A stretch of 52,543 nt of DNA from Candidatus Kuenenia stuttgartensis (GTDB lineage: Bacteria > Planctomycetota > Planctomycetia > Planctomycetales > Planctomycetaceae): NCBI GenBank assembly GCA_945861865.1, contig CAMAWN010000016.1:1-52543 (forward strand). Reading direction: 5' to 3'. This document shows, one piece after another, positions 8,117 to 47,223 of this stretch. The notes under the pieces are model-generated. The model searched no databases. It was not told the origin of the DNA and was given only the letters and a program-made list of their open reading frames with translations. Made by a program: the position numbers and the translations under genes. Position 1 is the first letter of the stretch. Each line of letters begins with the position of its first letter.

Positions 8117-8250
8117 TGGCACCACCGTCGCCGAGGCCGTGAGTCATTCGTCGCTGGATGGCAACGTAGAAGTCCGGCCGCAGAGTCGCAACATCGGCTG
8201 ATGGCGTTATTCTGTCGTCCGCATTGCCAGACACTCAGTTTGAGGACGAC

Positions 8251-10941
8251 ATGAGCCAGTCGCAGGAGAAGCGTAACGTGGGGCAGGTTTCCAACCTGCC
8301 CGTCCAACAAGGGCAGGTTGAAAACCTGCCTCACGCGCCGCGTAATCTCACGCCGGCGATGGAGCGATATTTGGAAGTGAAGCGACAGAATCCCGGTTCG
8401 ATCCTGCTGTTTCGGATGGGTGATTTTTACGAGCTATTCTTCGAGGACGCCGTCGTCTCGTCCAAAGTGCTGGGGTTGACGCTGACCAGTCGCGACAAAG
8501 GCTCGACGAACCCGATTCCAATGGCCGGGTTCCCGTATCACGCCCTCGAAGGCTATTTGCGAAAGCTGATCGTCGCCGGACATCGCGTCGCCGTCTGCGA
8601 GCAGATGGAAGACCCGAAACTCGCCAAAGGCATGATCAAGCGTGAGGTCACGCAAGTCGTCACGCCCGGCACGTTGACCGACGAGGCGTTGCTCGACCCA
8701 CGCGAATCGAACTTCCTCGCCAGCGTTTGGCCGAGCCGATCCGGCTCAGTCGGTCTCGCGTGGTTGGAGGTTTCGACCGGCCGATTTGTCACGACCGATT
8801 TGGAACCCGCGCAGTTGGCGGACGAACTCGCCCGCATTCGGCCAAGCGAGTGCCTGCATCCCGAACACCTCGCCAACGACGAGCGGTTGCGACCGTTGTT
8901 CGCACGCAGCGGATTGCTCGCGACACCGCGTGCTCCGTGGTGTTGGGCTGAGGAGGCGTGTCGCTCCGCGCTACTGAAACACTTCGGCACGACGACGCTC
9001 GAAGGCTTCGACATCGACGGCAATTCGGCCGGCGTGACGGCAGCGGGAGCGTTGCTCGAATACGTCCAAGAGATGCAGAAGTCCTCGCTGGCTCACATCA
9101 GCCGCTTGGAACCGTATCGCCGAGGCACGTCACTGATCATCGACGAAGCGACGCGAGCGAGTCTCGAATTGACCCGCACGATCCGCGAAGGCAAGCGAGA
9201 CAACAGCCTGCTGTCGGTCCTCGACGAAACCGTCTCGCCGATGGGCGCGCGGCTGCTGGCCGAGTGGCTGTCGAATCCGCTGACCAACATCGGAGCGATC
9301 AATCGCCGTCTGGATTCCGTCGAGGAACTGACTCGCGATACGATGTTCTGCCGCGACCTCCGCGAGATCCTCGCCGAGACTTACGACCTGCAACGCCTGA
9401 CCGCAAAGGTCGCCACCGGACGAGCCAGTCCGCGCGATCTCGGCAGCTTGACCCGCTCGCTCGCTCTGTTGCCGCGATTGAAGGCCAAACTCGCAGGGCG
9501 GCAGAGCGAACTGCTGCAATTGCTTGAAGCTGATCTCGATCTCAACGCCGAAATTCGCACCGACATCGACGCGACGCTGGTCGATGAACCGCCGCTGCTC
9601 ACCACCGACGGCGGCATGATTCGCCCTGGCTTCAACACAACGCTCGATGAACTGCGTGACCTCGCTCGCGGCGGCAAAGAGTGGATCGCCCGCTATCAGG
9701 CGAAAGAATCCGAACGGCTCGGCCTGCCGAACTTGAAGGTCGGATTCAACAAAGTCTTCGGCTACTACCTAGAAGTCACCGCCGCTCAAGCCGCGAAGAT
9801 TCCGCCGGAATACATCCGCAAGCAAACGCTCAAAAACCAAGAACGCTTCATCACACCGGAACTCAAAGAATACGAAGACAAAGTTCTGCGAGCCGAAGAG
9901 CGGGCGATCTCGCGGGAACAAGAACTCTTCGCCGCCCTCCGCGGACGAGTCTCCGCCGCCACCGTGCGATTGAAGCAAACTGCCGACGTGCTCGCCGAAG
10001 TGGATGTCCTCGCCGCGCTGGCGACGCTCGCCGTCAAGCAAGGCTATTGCCGTCCGGAACTGACCGAGGACCCGATCCTCGACATCCGCGAAGGCCGGCA
10101 TCCGGTGCTCGACAAGCTGATGCCATCGGGTTCGTTCGTGCCGAATGACGTGCGACTGGGACGTAGTGCGGCCGGTCGTGTGCAGCTCATCACTGGTCCG
10201 AACATGGCCGGCAAGAGCACCTACATCCGACAAGCAGCCTTGCTGACGATCATGACTCAGATGGGCAGCTTCATCCCGGCCAGCGAGGCTCGCATCGGTA
10301 TCGCCGATCGCATCTTCGCTCGCGTCGGCGCGAGTGATGAGCTCAGCAAAGGCCAGAGCACGTTCATGGTCGAGATGACCGAGACCGCGCGGATTCTGAA
10401 CTCCGCGAGCGACCGCAGCCTCGTGATCCTCGACGAGATCGGCCGCGGCACGAGCACCTACGACGGCATCTCGCTGGCCTGGGCGGTCACCGAATTTCTG
10501 CACGATCAAATCCGCTGCCGCACGCTGTTCGCCACGCACTACCACGAGCTGACCGAACTGACCAAGACGCTTCCCGAAACCAGCAACTGGAACGTCGCGA
10601 TCCGCGAGCACGGCGACGACATCGTCTTCCTGCACAAAATTGTGGAAGGCCCGGCCGATAAAAGCTACGGCATCCACGTCGCTAAAATCGCCGGCCTGCC
10701 GCGCGACGTCGTCGAACGTGCCCAAGTCATCCTCGCCCAACTCGAAGCCGACCACGTTGACGAATCAGGCAAAGTCAAAATCCCCGAACGTAAAACCGGG
10801 TTGCGCGACCGCCAGCTTTCGCTGTTCATCGAAGCGGATCATCCGGTGATCGAACAATTGAAGTCGCTCGACATCGAGCAGCTCACGCCAATTGCGGCTT
10901 TGCAGAAGCTGAACGAACTTCGCGAGTCGTTGGCCAAGTGA
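8251..10941 (+). CDS. mutS: DNA mismatch repair protein MutS
   Basis: Recognises mismatches and starts methyl-independent repair together with MutL. 896 residues from ATG 8251 (GAGGA at 8242-8246, short four-base spacer); MutS is usually 850-880. The mismatch-reading motif FYE is at 59-61 in [12 protein letters not shown]. The connector, lever and clamp regions follow ([17 protein letters not shown] near 500), then the ATPase: Walker [14 protein letters not shown] near 648-660, STFMVEM, Walker [17 protein letters not shown] near 720-735, and [10 protein letters not shown]. Odd feature: residues 10-28, [19 protein letters not shown], are the translation of a double palindrome (8277-8335) shared with other loci here. 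It sits just before the conserved [12 protein letters not shown] start of domain I. A start after the repeat would lose LTP and has no ribosome binding site. TTG 8224 is an alternative start. Confidence 0.97.
8277..8335 (+). repeat. Double-hairpin palindrome A, translated inside mutS
   Basis: Two inverted copies of a 25-base unit (8277-8301 and 8311-8335) separated by nine bases. Each copy is itself a hairpin: GGCAGGTT-TCC-AACCTGCC, then GGCAGGTT-GAA-AACCTGCC, flanked outside by CGTGG and TCACG. After reverse complement the two units differ at two positions. The same layout occurs at 28212-28268, 38350-38416 and 47150-47213. Confidence 0.9.
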
Positions 10942-20845: not shown

Positions 20846-21241
20846 ATGCGACAGCACGAAATTCAAATCCGAGTGCGATACTCGGAAACCGATGCGATGG
20901 GGTTTCTGCATCACGCGAATTATTTCTGCTACTTTGAAGTCGGACGGACGGAATTGTTCCGCGCTCAAGGGGGCGACTACCGAGCGATGGAAGAGGGAGG
21001 CTTGTTCCTCGTCGTCGCCAAGCTGGATTGCCGCTATCGCGCGCCGGCTCGGTATGACGACTTGCTGACGCTGCGGACGACAATTACGGCTGCGACTGAG
21101 GCGAAGCTCGAACACGGGTACGAACTCTTCCGGGACAGCACGCTGCTCTGCACCGGACACAGCACGCTGGCCTGTGTGGATCGCAGCGGAAAACTCCAGC
21201 GGATGCCGGTGGAGTTGCTGCGGATGTGTGGCGCAACGTAG
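20846..21241 (+). CDS. YbgC/4HBT-type acyl-CoA thioesterase
   Basis: 131 residues, hot-dog fold. The signature [21 protein letters not shown] (11-31) carries the catalytic Asp16 and the HH-AN-Y stretch of the YbgC/4-hydroxybenzoyl-CoA thioesterase group; [17 protein letters not shown] follows. It hydrolyses an acyl-CoA thioester; the substrate is not evident, and no tol-pal genes are nearby. I chose ATG 20846; GTG 20816 would add ten residues but lies in the hairpin arm, and neither has a good ribosome binding site. The TAG stop (21239-21241) is inside a long hairpin shared with the end of convergent hemE. Confidence 0.88.
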
Positions 21242-21272
21242 CCCTGTCGCTCCGCGACACGGCTATGTTGCG
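21232..21272. terminator. Long hairpin between convergent ybgC-like gene and hemE
   Basis: CGCAACGTAGCCCTGTCG (21232-21249) pairs with 21255-21272 at 17 of 18 positions, counting one G-T pair. It includes the TAG stop of the thioesterase and lies directly before the hemE stop, so it could end transcription from both sides, although no T-run is present. It begins with TAGCCC like the hairpin at 4014-4039, and may be a mobile-type repeat reused as a gene end. Confidence 0.55.
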
Positions 21273-28211: not shown

Positions 28212-28268
28212 CGTGGGGCTGGTTTTCAGCCGGCCCGTTTTGACTGGCAGGTTGAAAACCTGCTCCAC
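28212..28268. repeat. Double-hairpin palindrome B in a divergent intergenic region
   Basis: Same family as A. First unit 28212-28236 (GGCTGGTT-TTC-AGCCGGCC, outer CGTGG), linker of nine bases, second unit 28246-28268 (GGCAGGTT-GAA-AACCTGCT, outer CCAC). The first stem differs from copy A on both sides and stays paired, with two G-T pairs. It ends 18 bases before the FAH start codon. Confidence 0.85.
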
Positions 28269-28286
28269 TCCTGAGGAGCTTGCTTC

Positions 28287-36755: not shown

Positions 36756-37751
36756 ATGAGATTCACGCTCGTACTCATTCTGAGTTTGGTATCTGTCGCA
36801 AACGCCGACGACAAAGTGCTCAACTGGACGAAAGTCACCGACAACGCCGGCTGGCAGCCGAGAGATTCTCAAGGTGAGGTCGTCTTCAAAGATCAACTGT
36901 GGATCTTCGGTGGCTGGTTCGATTCGTTTCACGCTCCGCCGCGCGACGTGTGGAGTTCGCCCGATGGCAAGACGTGGAAGAAGATCACGGACAACGCTCC
37001 GTGGAAGCACAGCGACTTGCCGATGTCGCTGACGTTTCAAGACAAGATGTGGTTCATGGGTGGCTGGTACAACGGTCGCTTGCCGGGCCACTCGGCCAGC
37101 AGCGAAGTGTGGTGGTCCACCGACGGCGCGAAGTGGGAACAATCCACCGCGAAAGCCGGTTGGACACCGCGCATCGCGGCGGCGGTTGTCGATTTTAAAG
37201 GCCGCATGTGGATGCTCGGCGGAACCGAGAACTATTACTTCGGCGACGACAGCAGCTTGAAGAACGACGTCTGGTCATCGGCCGACGGCAAGGAATGGAA
37301 GCAGCACACAGCCAACGCCGGCTGGTCGCCGCGAGCGTATCATCAAGCGGCGGTGCTCAACGGCAAGATGTACGTCTTCGGCGGCGGCAACTACGTCCCG
37401 AAATATCACGGAGTCAACGACGTGTGGTGCTCGGAAGACGGCGAGAATTGGACGCAGCTCACCGAACACGCCGGCTGGTCGCCGCGACTGTGGTTCTCGT
37501 CGGTCGTTTATCGAGATCACATCTGGGTACTCGGTGGTTGGTCGAACAACCCGTCGAAGAATTGGGGCGACGTCTGGTATTCCAAAGACGGCAAGAATTG
37601 GAAGCAGCTCAAGTCCGACGTGGCTTGGAAAGAACGTCACGAGCACTCGGCCTACGTCTTCCAAGACAAAATCTGGCTCGCTGGTGGGCACGCACAACCG
37701 CTCAGCAGTGAAGTCTGGTCGCTGGAGTTGCCAAAGGATTTTGGAAAGTAG
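36756..37751 (+). CDS. Exported kelch-repeat beta-propeller protein
   Basis: 331 residues from ATG 36756, chosen because GGAGG precedes it and it yields a signal peptide MRFTLVLILSLVSVANA; GTG 36729 overlaps the upstream stop. About six kelch-like blades follow, each with a WxxGG core (LWIFGGWF, MWFMGGWY, MWMLGGTE, MYVFGGGN, IWVLGGWS, IWLAGGHA) and the repeated SxDGKxWKxxTxNAxWxxR segment. Such propellers bind sugars or proteins; no galactose-oxidase catalytic residues are evident. It ends 50 bases inside the 3' end of the convergent 546-residue gene. The third gene in a row of exported proteins. Confidence 0.9.
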   Translation: MRFTLVLILSLVSVANADDKVLNWTKVTDNAGWQPRDSQGEVVFKDQLWIFGGWFDSFHAPPRDVWSSPDGKTWKKITDNAPWKHSDLPMSLTFQDKMWFMGGWYNGRLPGHSASSEVWWSTDGAKWEQSTAKAGWTPRIAAAVVDFKGRMWMLGGTENYYFGDDSSLKNDVWSSADGKEWKQHTANAGWSPRAYHQAAVLNGKMYVFGGGNYVPKYHGVNDVWCSEDGENWTQLTEHAGWSPRLWFSSVVYRDHIWVLGGWSNNPSKNWGDVWYSKDGKNWKQLKSDVAWKERHEHSAYVFQDKIWLAGGHAQPLSSEVWSLELPKDFGK

Positions 37752-39342
37752 CCAGCACGAGCACCGGCCACGGACTCACGGCAGCGATTTGCCGCGCTTC
37801 GTCCTCAGTCGGCACGAACAGCATCGCGTCCTCGCGGCCAGCTTCAGACAAATCGAGATCGTTCAACACGCGCCATTCGGCTTCCTGAGACCAGTCGATC
37901 ATCTTGGCCCCGCGACGCGAGCGAGTCGTATTTAATTGAAAGAACGGCCGGTCGGATTTCGTCAGCGTCGACCAATGGTGATCGTCGCCGTAGATCACCG
38001 GCTTGGCTCCGCGTGCTTGCAACCACTCGCGGCGCAGGCAGAGGCCGTAGGTTTCGCAGTCCCATCGACCGCGATGCGCACGAAACGTGCGCTGCTTCGT
38101 CAGTTCGCGGAGCGGCTTGGCCGAAAAACTCACCACCGTTGCTTCGCCGCGAATCCCTGCGGCGGAGGCGATCAGTCGTCGCTGTTGCACGATTCGCGAC
38201 AACGCGGCGAATGCCGAATGGCTGCCGGCCTCTTGCCGCAACAACAAATCGTCGATGAAGTCCGCTTCGGATTGATCGGGCCATGGGCCGTCTTGCCGCC
38301 GAGTCCAATGCACGAAGTAATCACCGTTCGGCCAAGGTATGTCGGTCATCGTGGGGCACGTTTCCAACGTGCCCGCCACTTGCGGCGGTGCGAGCACGTT
38401 GGAAACGTGCTCCACGAACAACCACCATCCAACGGCACCAAGCGACTGTAATTCGGTGGCGACTTCGCTTGGAACAAGCGCATCGCCCAGCGCCAGCCAC
38501 ACCGACGCCGTCGGCCAGGCGGCGTTCAACAGTCTCGCTCGCAGGAGCTGATGTAGGTTTCCGTTCGGACGCACCTGCAATGCGAACACTTGATCCGCCG
38601 CCGCGATCAGCACTCGGTCACTCAGCGGCAAGTCGGAGGATGGTCCGACTTCGGCGGATTGCCCGTCCCCGCTCGTTGAATGCGGAACGGGCAGGAGTGC
38701 CCATTCTCCGGGTGGCGACACGAACACGTCCGATCGCGTGACGTCAGGCTCTTCGGAATCCTGTACGAGGCTGTTTCGCCAAAGCTGACGTCGCAAGCGA
38801 GTCAGCCAATCGACCAGCGTGCGGCGTTCGTCGAGATGCACTTGCAGGCGTCGAACGCCGAACAGAATTGCCGCTCGTTCAAGAAACCGATCGACGGTCG
38901 TACCGGAAGCTGTCAGCAACAGGTCTCGTTGAGGATCGAGTTTCGCCGTTGCTGAGCGGAGCACCGCGAACCAGTCCGGCCGCTCGTCGATGGCTCGGCC
39001 CAATCGCGAACTGATCCACGCAACTCTTCGTCCCTCTGGCACACCTCGCGGCCACCACAGCAGTCGTGGACCGAGCCAGTGTTCCAACGGCCGATCGTCA
39101 CTCGACGGCCAGCCGAAAGTCAGCGCTTCTCCGTTCTGCTGTGACCAATTCAAGAGCCGAATCAAGGCGGTCGCGTTCCGATGCGGCTTGGTGTGTTCCG
39201 GCAGTGACGCAACACGCTGTGCGGCTTCCGCCAGCATCGGCAGCAGATCATCGCCGGGCTTCAAAGAAGTCAGTGCCGACGGCCATGCGTGGCTCGGCAC
39301 GAGCCATCCCGAAGCGATCAAGGCTCGTGCGAGTTCGACCAT
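37702..39342 (-). CDS. Large protein of unknown function (546 aa) with in-frame palindrome
   Basis: No signal peptide and no membrane helix. Rich in Trp, Arg and Leu; visible segments are LLPMLAEAAQRVASLPEHTK, LLTASGTTVDRFLERAAILF and LVDWLTRLRRQLWRNSL. In the C-terminal part MIDWSQEAEWRVLNDLDLS resembles the WxxExEWR motif of several poorly known families (for example DUF2971-like), and SAKPLRELTKQRTFRAHRGR with TYGLCLRREWLQARGAKPVI precedes it. Near residues 309-331, VEHVSNVL-APPQVAGTLETCPTM is the translation of palindrome C. No family is recognised, so I give no function. The last 16 codons overlap the end of the kelch gene on the other strand. Confidence 0.72.
   Translation of the reverse strand: MVELARALIASGWLVPSHAWPSALTSLKPGDDLLPMLAEAAQRVASLPEHTKPHRNATALIRLLNWSQQNGEALTFGWPSSDDRPLEHWLGPRLLWWPRGVPEGRRVAWISSRLGRAIDERPDWFAVLRSATAKLDPQRDLLLTASGTTVDRFLERAAILFGVRRLQVHLDERRTLVDWLTRLRRQLWRNSLVQDSEEPDVTRSDVFVSPPGEWALLPVPHSTSGDGQSAEVGPSSDLPLSDRVLIAAADQVFALQVRPNGNLHQLLRARLLNAAWPTASVWLALGDALVPSEVATELQSLGAVGWWLFVEHVSNVLAPPQVAGTLETCPTMTDIPWPNGDYFVHWTRRQDGPWPDQSEADFIDDLLLRQEAGSHSAFAALSRIVQQRRLIASAAGIRGEATVVSFSAKPLRELTKQRTFRAHRGRWDCETYGLCLRREWLQARGAKPVIYGDDHHWSTLTKSDRPFFQLNTTRSRRGAKMIDWSQEAEWRVLNDLDLSEAGREDAMLFVPTEDEARQIAAVSPWPVLVLATFQNPLATPATRLHC
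38350..38416 (-). repeat. Double-hairpin palindrome C, translated inside the 546-aa gene
   Basis: Units 38350-38374 (GGCACGTT-TCC-AACGTGCC, outer CGTGG) and 38392-38416 (AGCACGTT-GGA-AACGTGCT, outer CCACG) with a 17-base linker. Compared with copy A, the inner AGG/CCT pair became ACG/CGT on both sides, so pairing is kept. Read on the minus strand it encodes VEHVSNVL, in the same frame as VGQVSNLP in mutS. Confidence 0.88.
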
Positions 39343-47149: not shown

Positions 47150-47213
47150 CGTGGGCCGAGGTTTTCAACCTGCCTGTTGGCTTCCAGCCGGGCGGTTGAA
47201 AACCCGCCCCACG
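47150..47213. repeat. Double-hairpin palindrome D between GYF and DUF1559 genes
   Basis: Units 47150-47174 (outer CGTGG, core GAGGTT-TTC-AACCTGCC) and 47190-47213 (GGGCGGTT-GAA-AACCCGCC, outer CCACG), with a 15-base linker. It fills nearly all of the 87-base gap between the two genes. Confidence 0.85.
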
Positions 47214-47223
47214 AATTCACGCC

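Follow-up and report, generated by a model that had tools for sequence, protein, structure and literature searches.

The mutS locus and its palindrome

The 52,543-nt stretch of DNA analysed here, called the window throughout, carries a mutS gene with a palindromic repeat in its reading frame close to the 5′-end (Table 1). The AlphaFold model of the encoded protein matches E. coli MutS structures, and an alignment of the protein with solved MutS chains starts at residue 34. Residues 1–30 were modelled with a pLDDT below 50, and the first helix of domain I starts at residue 35.

A half-site scan of the window gave eight matches at up to three mismatches, located in four places, where 100 dinucleotide shuffles predicted 0.00. 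A previous sequence-only reading had described the repeat as a double hairpin present at four loci; the same four places were recovered, and the boundaries it gave for the mutS copy, 8277–8335, proved exact. It had also read the frame correctly, placing the element between ATG 8251 and domain I, where its translation is a stop-free peptide of 19 residues. When the mutS copy was stacked with 39 other genomic copies (40 in total), the ends of the element were found to be CGTGG...CC(A)CG, enclosing a variable spacer. The minus-strand ORF hosting one of the further copies in the window had no Pfam match.

Table 1. Positions in the window of mutS, of its two insertion sites and of the further copies of the repeat.
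Feature	Position	Strand	Remarks
GAGGA and ATG start of mutS	8242–8253	+	ATG in 12/12 and GAGGA in 11/12 genomes of the genus
mutS	8251–10941	+	896 aa; all five MutS Pfam domains
REP doublet (REPIN-like element) in mutS	8277–8335	+	59 nt; two inverted hairpins, in the mutS frame
REP hairpin 1	8281–8301	+	9-bp stem GGGCAGGTT/AACCTGCCC, loop TCC; GTGG tag at 8278–8281
REP hairpin 2, inverted	8311–8331	−	outward minus-strand tag is GTGA in the mutS copy
Second MutS insert slot	10162–10173	+	turn before Walker A, after VRLG; 12 nt here
Further copy, intergenic	28213–28271	+	half-site scan
Further copy, in frame within ORF 37702–39342 (−)	38350–38416	−	FVEHVSNVLAPPQVAGTLETCPT
Further copy, intergenic, diverged	47151–47215	+	half-site scan

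The 59-nt insert was absent from mutS in all 11 other genomes of the genus, which share the same ATG and have a short leader instead, e.g. MSQSMEQTSATNPAPRN in G011. Its absence there points to a recent insertion in mutS. An ancestral coding peptide, for which a check of the orthologues had been proposed in the sequence-only reading, was thereby refuted. Relative to G011, whose MutS is 95% identical, approximately 18 nt were replaced with a net gain of 45 nt, and the junction displayed no evident duplication (both judged by eye). The 59 nt fit an insertion tolerated in the flexible leader of MutS, one of the two possibilities named in the sequence-only reading.

The other possibility, that the start of the gene was rebuilt around the element, was not supported, since all 12 genomes share one start codon. 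The codons following it are alike across the genus (MSQSMEQ, MSHSLEK, MSQPPEK, MSQSMDQ) and the upstream DNA diverges with indels. This pattern also speaks against the idea that the true start lies within or after the element, at GTG 8278 or ATG 8359, and that all or the upstream part of the palindrome serves as a 5′ leader hairpin controlling translation. As RNA the hairpin is strong (−45.9 kcal/mol, z −9.1; 0 of 200 shuffles as good), and it starts 26 nt past the A of the ATG. A GGAG lies 9 nt upstream of GTG 8278, and many REPs at the 5′-ends of ORFs may be extragenic according to the discussion of such cases in PMC3733652. However, the only start codon available in frame from 8335 to the end of LTPAMERY is ATG 8359, and its use would remove the LTPA of this motif, which in this or a close form is present in the aligned MutS. 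A start downstream of the element is unlikely, and we give the leader hairpin only a small chance of being the correct explanation.

Hairpin structure, family size and relation to known repeats

Taken alone, the mutS copy folds best as one long hairpin, and as single-stranded DNA it reached −26.2 kcal/mol (z −8.3; 0 of 200 shuffles as good). An alignment of 41 copies was used to find the unit that covaries; L062 and L082, which have broken ends, were left out, and the copies from beyond the window were the best among 40 scored ones of 158 candidates, so that the sample consists of copies most like the mutS copy. The two local hairpins held standard pairs in 90.1% of the cells, and 12 cells were changed on both sides against 3.1 after shuffling (0 of 500). 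The single long hairpin was not supported as covarying unit, with 6 changes on both sides against 5.8 after shuffling. As the local hairpins covary and the long helix does not, the covarying unit is a head-to-head pair of REP-like hairpins with the GTGG tag on the outside. The tag was found at the left end of 39 and at the right end of 34 of the 41 copies. The phase of the spacer was also considered as a sign of selection and discarded: the interior copies had their arms in phase in 7 of 10 cases, the terminal ones in 5 of 6 and the remaining ones in 14 of 25, without a clear difference.

The genome from which the window derives (G000, assembled in 351 contigs) contained 258 matches to GTGGGGCAGGTTNNNAACCTGCC at up to two mismatches (130 forward and 128 reverse), and none to the reversed control. 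Here, in the half-site scan and in the counts that follow, the numbers are matches to the pattern and not hairpins, because one hairpin can match on both strands. Repeats of this family are written GTGGGGCAGGTT. The 12 rows of the genus held between 15 and 594 matches each, whereas outside the genus any match was present in 5 of 28 rows and more than one in two (G019, 47; G039, 75). The reversed control gave 1, 1 and 2 matches in G001, G008 and G010, respectively.

The sequence-only reading had likened the element to the Rickettsia palindromic elements (RPE) while noting its different sequence. The likeness in behaviour holds, in that palindromes lie open in frame in housekeeping genes (here mutS, CinA, PBP2 and others), and the mutS copy even has a CGTC just inside hairpin 1 (8301–8304). 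The closest kind is nevertheless the GTAG/GTGG REP doublet. CGTC elements of the RPE-4/6 type, as described in PMC3733652, have CGTC at the outer end, loops of 4–5 nt and stems whose first two pairs are AT, and that description reports no association with a transposase. In the family of the window the outer end is GTGG, an inner-side CGTC occurs in only 7 and 4 of the 41 copies at the two sides, the loops are 3 nt long and the stems begin with G-C pairs, so that the two are set apart by description. Membership of the RPE can be dismissed with near certainty.

The GTAG superfamily comprises head-to-head REP dimers, one of them a GTGG variant, GTAG-20 of Opitutus terrae, and several REP families are reported from R. 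baltica in the same survey (Di Nocera et al. 2013, PMC3733652). The family of the window resembles this type, the GTAG/GTGG REP doublet or REPIN, in having inverted palindromes arranged head to head with an outside GTRG tag (41 copies), hairpins with compensatory changes and many dispersed copies. Since in-frame GTAG-type REP doublets within genes, repair genes included, have already been published there, the element in mutS belongs to a known kind. REPINs as described by Bertels and Rainey (2011, PMC3116915) are REP doublets forming an inverted repeat with a predicted hairpin, and the likeness extends to REP families of this genus lying beside Y1 or RAYT-like genes. They are, however, described in extragenic space and as a long hairpin with compensatory changes, whereas here it is the local hairpins that covary and a part of the copies, detailed below, lies deep inside called genes.

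Copies in other genes

The context of 43 copies in G000, again those most like the mutS copy, was determined with a simple home-made gene caller based on codons. Of these, 17 were intergenic, 10 were at gene edges and 16 were inside called genes, 10 of the latter with at least 77 residues on both sides; two further copies were seen by eye in the same host proteins. Arm 1 was in the VGQV frame in 10 of 12 intragenic copies (by eye; binomial p 5e-4), and the consensus has a TGA in one of its three frames. Pfam searches identified as hosts a tryptophan-halogenase-like protein, CinA, a PBP (two copies), PSCyt/PSD proteins and MurJ, in which the copy is near the called N-terminus, and a hydantoinase-like protein was recognised by eye. 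The flanks of the copies (L062, L063, L081 and L082 left out) revealed no target motif beyond a weak T at position −1.

Ten of the 12 genomes of the genus yielded a CinA sequence, and all 10 proteins contained the insert peptide. It was present in none of 15 aligned sequences from other genera, in a loop that aligns poorly; this comparison includes L185 and L186 and leaves out eight rows missed by the seed. In PBP2 of ten genomes of the genus (L164–L173), several unrelated and mostly palindromic inserts occupied one slot, the linker in the PBP dimerisation domain. Nine of the ten folded at z −4 or lower relative to 150 single-base shuffles, the exception being that of G001 (z −1.0). L185 and L186, missed by the seed, were left out of the insert-slot comparison that includes PBP2. 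One PBP2 insert family, GGCACACTCCGTGTGCC, was also located near a Y1 match in G005 (L256).

A second insertion slot before the Walker A motif of MutS

A second slot was identified further downstream in mutS, at a turn which in the predicted model connects the strands 632–636 and 644–648. It measured 48–174 nt in 10 of 11 readable genomes of the genus, compared with the 12 nt of the window. The stretch from HPV to TGPNM accordingly spanned 49–91 residues in these 10 and 37 in the MutS of the window; outside the genus it spanned 35–37 residues in 36 of 43 readable sequences and 44–70 in the remaining 7. The loop is thus enlarged in the genus relative to the outside (Fisher p 8e-6, on rows that are not independent). 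The rows were taken from two collections with near-duplicates kept; five unreadable rows were left out, as were G005 and G023, in which the site was not reached.

The ten inserts represent about seven unrelated types, as judged by eye, which differ in sequence and length. Eight folded at z −4 or lower (150 single-base shuffles), and the weakly folding ones were those of G006 (z −0.5) and G011 (z −2.3). The insert of G008 folds well, yet is without exact inverted arms of at least 8 nt. Only one of the seven long loops outside the genus folded as well or was palindromic. On a mutS tree from which the loop was omitted, at least eight changes of the slot state were needed. One insert type common to G002 and G007 was somewhat at odds with this tree (AU p 0.0485), so that inserts may have been replaced or exchanged.

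Could these inserts be adaptive, with REPs in MutS altering mismatch repair, for instance as a tunable mutator, and with repair genes favoured as hosts? MutS has two slots, one of them with about seven insert types, and Di Nocera et al. (PMC3733652) point to numerous REPs lying within repair genes and raise the possibility of mutators. The other proteins hit (halogenase-like, PSCyt/PSD, PBP2, MurJ and hydantoinase-like) are, however, unrelated, PBP2 displays the same pattern of many inserts in one slot, and the MutS inserts vary in sequence and length at what is in the model a turn between two strands. We therefore regard an adaptive role as improbable. A more specific version is very unlikely: the slot would be a standing docking site emptied and refilled by REPINs driven by a RAYT, with the loop setting the rate of mismatch repair as a reversible mutator dial. 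If the slot were repeatedly emptied and refilled, the CGTAGTGCGGCC of the window would be the scar of a lost insert.

The 12 nt at 10162–10173 are CGTAGTGCGGCC and start like the end of a GTAG REP. They are possibly the scar of an insert that was lost.

Insert families and Y1 transposases

Several inserts of the second slot belong to families repeated elsewhere in the same genomes. GTAGGTCAGGCTNNNNAGCCTGACC, from MutS of G010 and G004, had 196 matches in G010 and 271 in G004, counted with the pattern GTAGGTCAGGCT and a 4-base loop. GTAGCACAGGCGNNTCGCCTGTG, from MutS of G007 and G002, had 40 and 33 matches, and GTAGCCCTGTCGCTCCGCGACAGG, from MutS of G009, had 51 matches in G009 and 85 in G006. 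The controls were 0 for all three.

Genes with the Y1 domain (PF01797) were present in 11 of the 12 genomes, in a count that pools RAYTs and other Y1 transposases. In G010 (L241) a 228-aa Y1 gene at 872–1555 is located between doublets of the GTAGGTCAGGCT family at 760–875 and 1570–1650. In G006, a short Y1 ORF (L258, 944–1294) has doublets of the GTAGCCCTGTCGC family on its two sides, at approximately 822–947 and 1701–1826; its Y1 match is weak (E 7.8e-5) and the gene may be cut short. Both families were also found in MutS. At L240 a doublet of the same family flanks the Y1 gene on one side only, and it is from L240, L241 and L258 that the link between families and Y1 genes is drawn.

At none of the 71 Y1 loci examined did copies of the window's own family lie on both sides of a Y1 gene, so that we infer that a RAYT mobilises this family. 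The RAYT association of GTAG/GTGG REP doublets was thus seen in two sister families and not in that of the window. The nearest case was at L241: approximately 360 nt away, on one side of the Y1 gene only, there is a doublet of this family with GGCACGTT arms, itself read in frame within the next ORF. At L209, a locus at the start of a contig, the repeat belongs to a different ORF, some 1.4 kb away from the Y1 gene. The three Y1 matches of G000 (one clear, one barely over the Pfam cut-off and one below it) had no copy of the window's family in the flanks that were fetched.

The window also contains, at 21238–21261, a single REP of another family, GTAGCCCTGTCGCTCCGCGACACG. This family adjoins the Y1 gene of L258 in G006 and, with small changes, occurs in MutS of G009.

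Evolution of the element in mutS

The history of the 59 nt may be depicted as follows. They very probably represent a single copy of a mobile palindrome that is non-autonomous and consists of two GTGG-tagged REP hairpins placed head to head, inserted in frame in mutS. The element would have multiplied within this planctomycete genus, presumably moved in trans by a transposase of the RAYT type (IS200-like, Y1). Its insertion at the 5′-end of mutS would postdate the split from the nearest relative, with about 18 nt replaced and a net 15 residues added. The insert would be read as a leader, predicted to be disordered, ahead of the mismatch-binding domain, probably with little or no effect on function. 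Its coding role may be one of survivorship: genic copies would last only if their length keeps the frame and if they offer a harmless reading frame (mostly VGQV..NLP) at a flexible terminus or loop. On the best reading these are selfish REPINs, and a copy within a gene persists only where it keeps the frame and the place is flexible; palindromic elements of this type seem able to join proteins repeatedly.

Relative to the REP doublets in PMC3733652, where different REPs at about the same site are described for one case, recB, the genus investigated here has a single MutS slot with about seven insert types, and a copy in every CinA that was found. That paper does not mention mutS by name in its main text, and our literature searches, most of which did not name mutS, returned no report of REPs in MutS. 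It is this occupation of one MutS loop by many families across the genus that is worth following. With both filled and empty sites available from a dozen species of a single genus, it can be seen how selfish palindromes turn into protein sequence, which reading frames and loops are permissible and for how long an added peptide is retained. The inserts amount to a natural insertion scan of housekeeping proteins (MutS, CinA, PBP), and the MutS slot, being located by the ATPase site, allows a direct test of neutral insertions versus those changing the mutation rate.

Two mutS matches from Lachnospiraceae (L117 and L161) have a large gap and spanned approximately 3.8 kb compared with 2.6 kb. No frame of the stretch was free of stops; these genes may carry an insertion or be broken.
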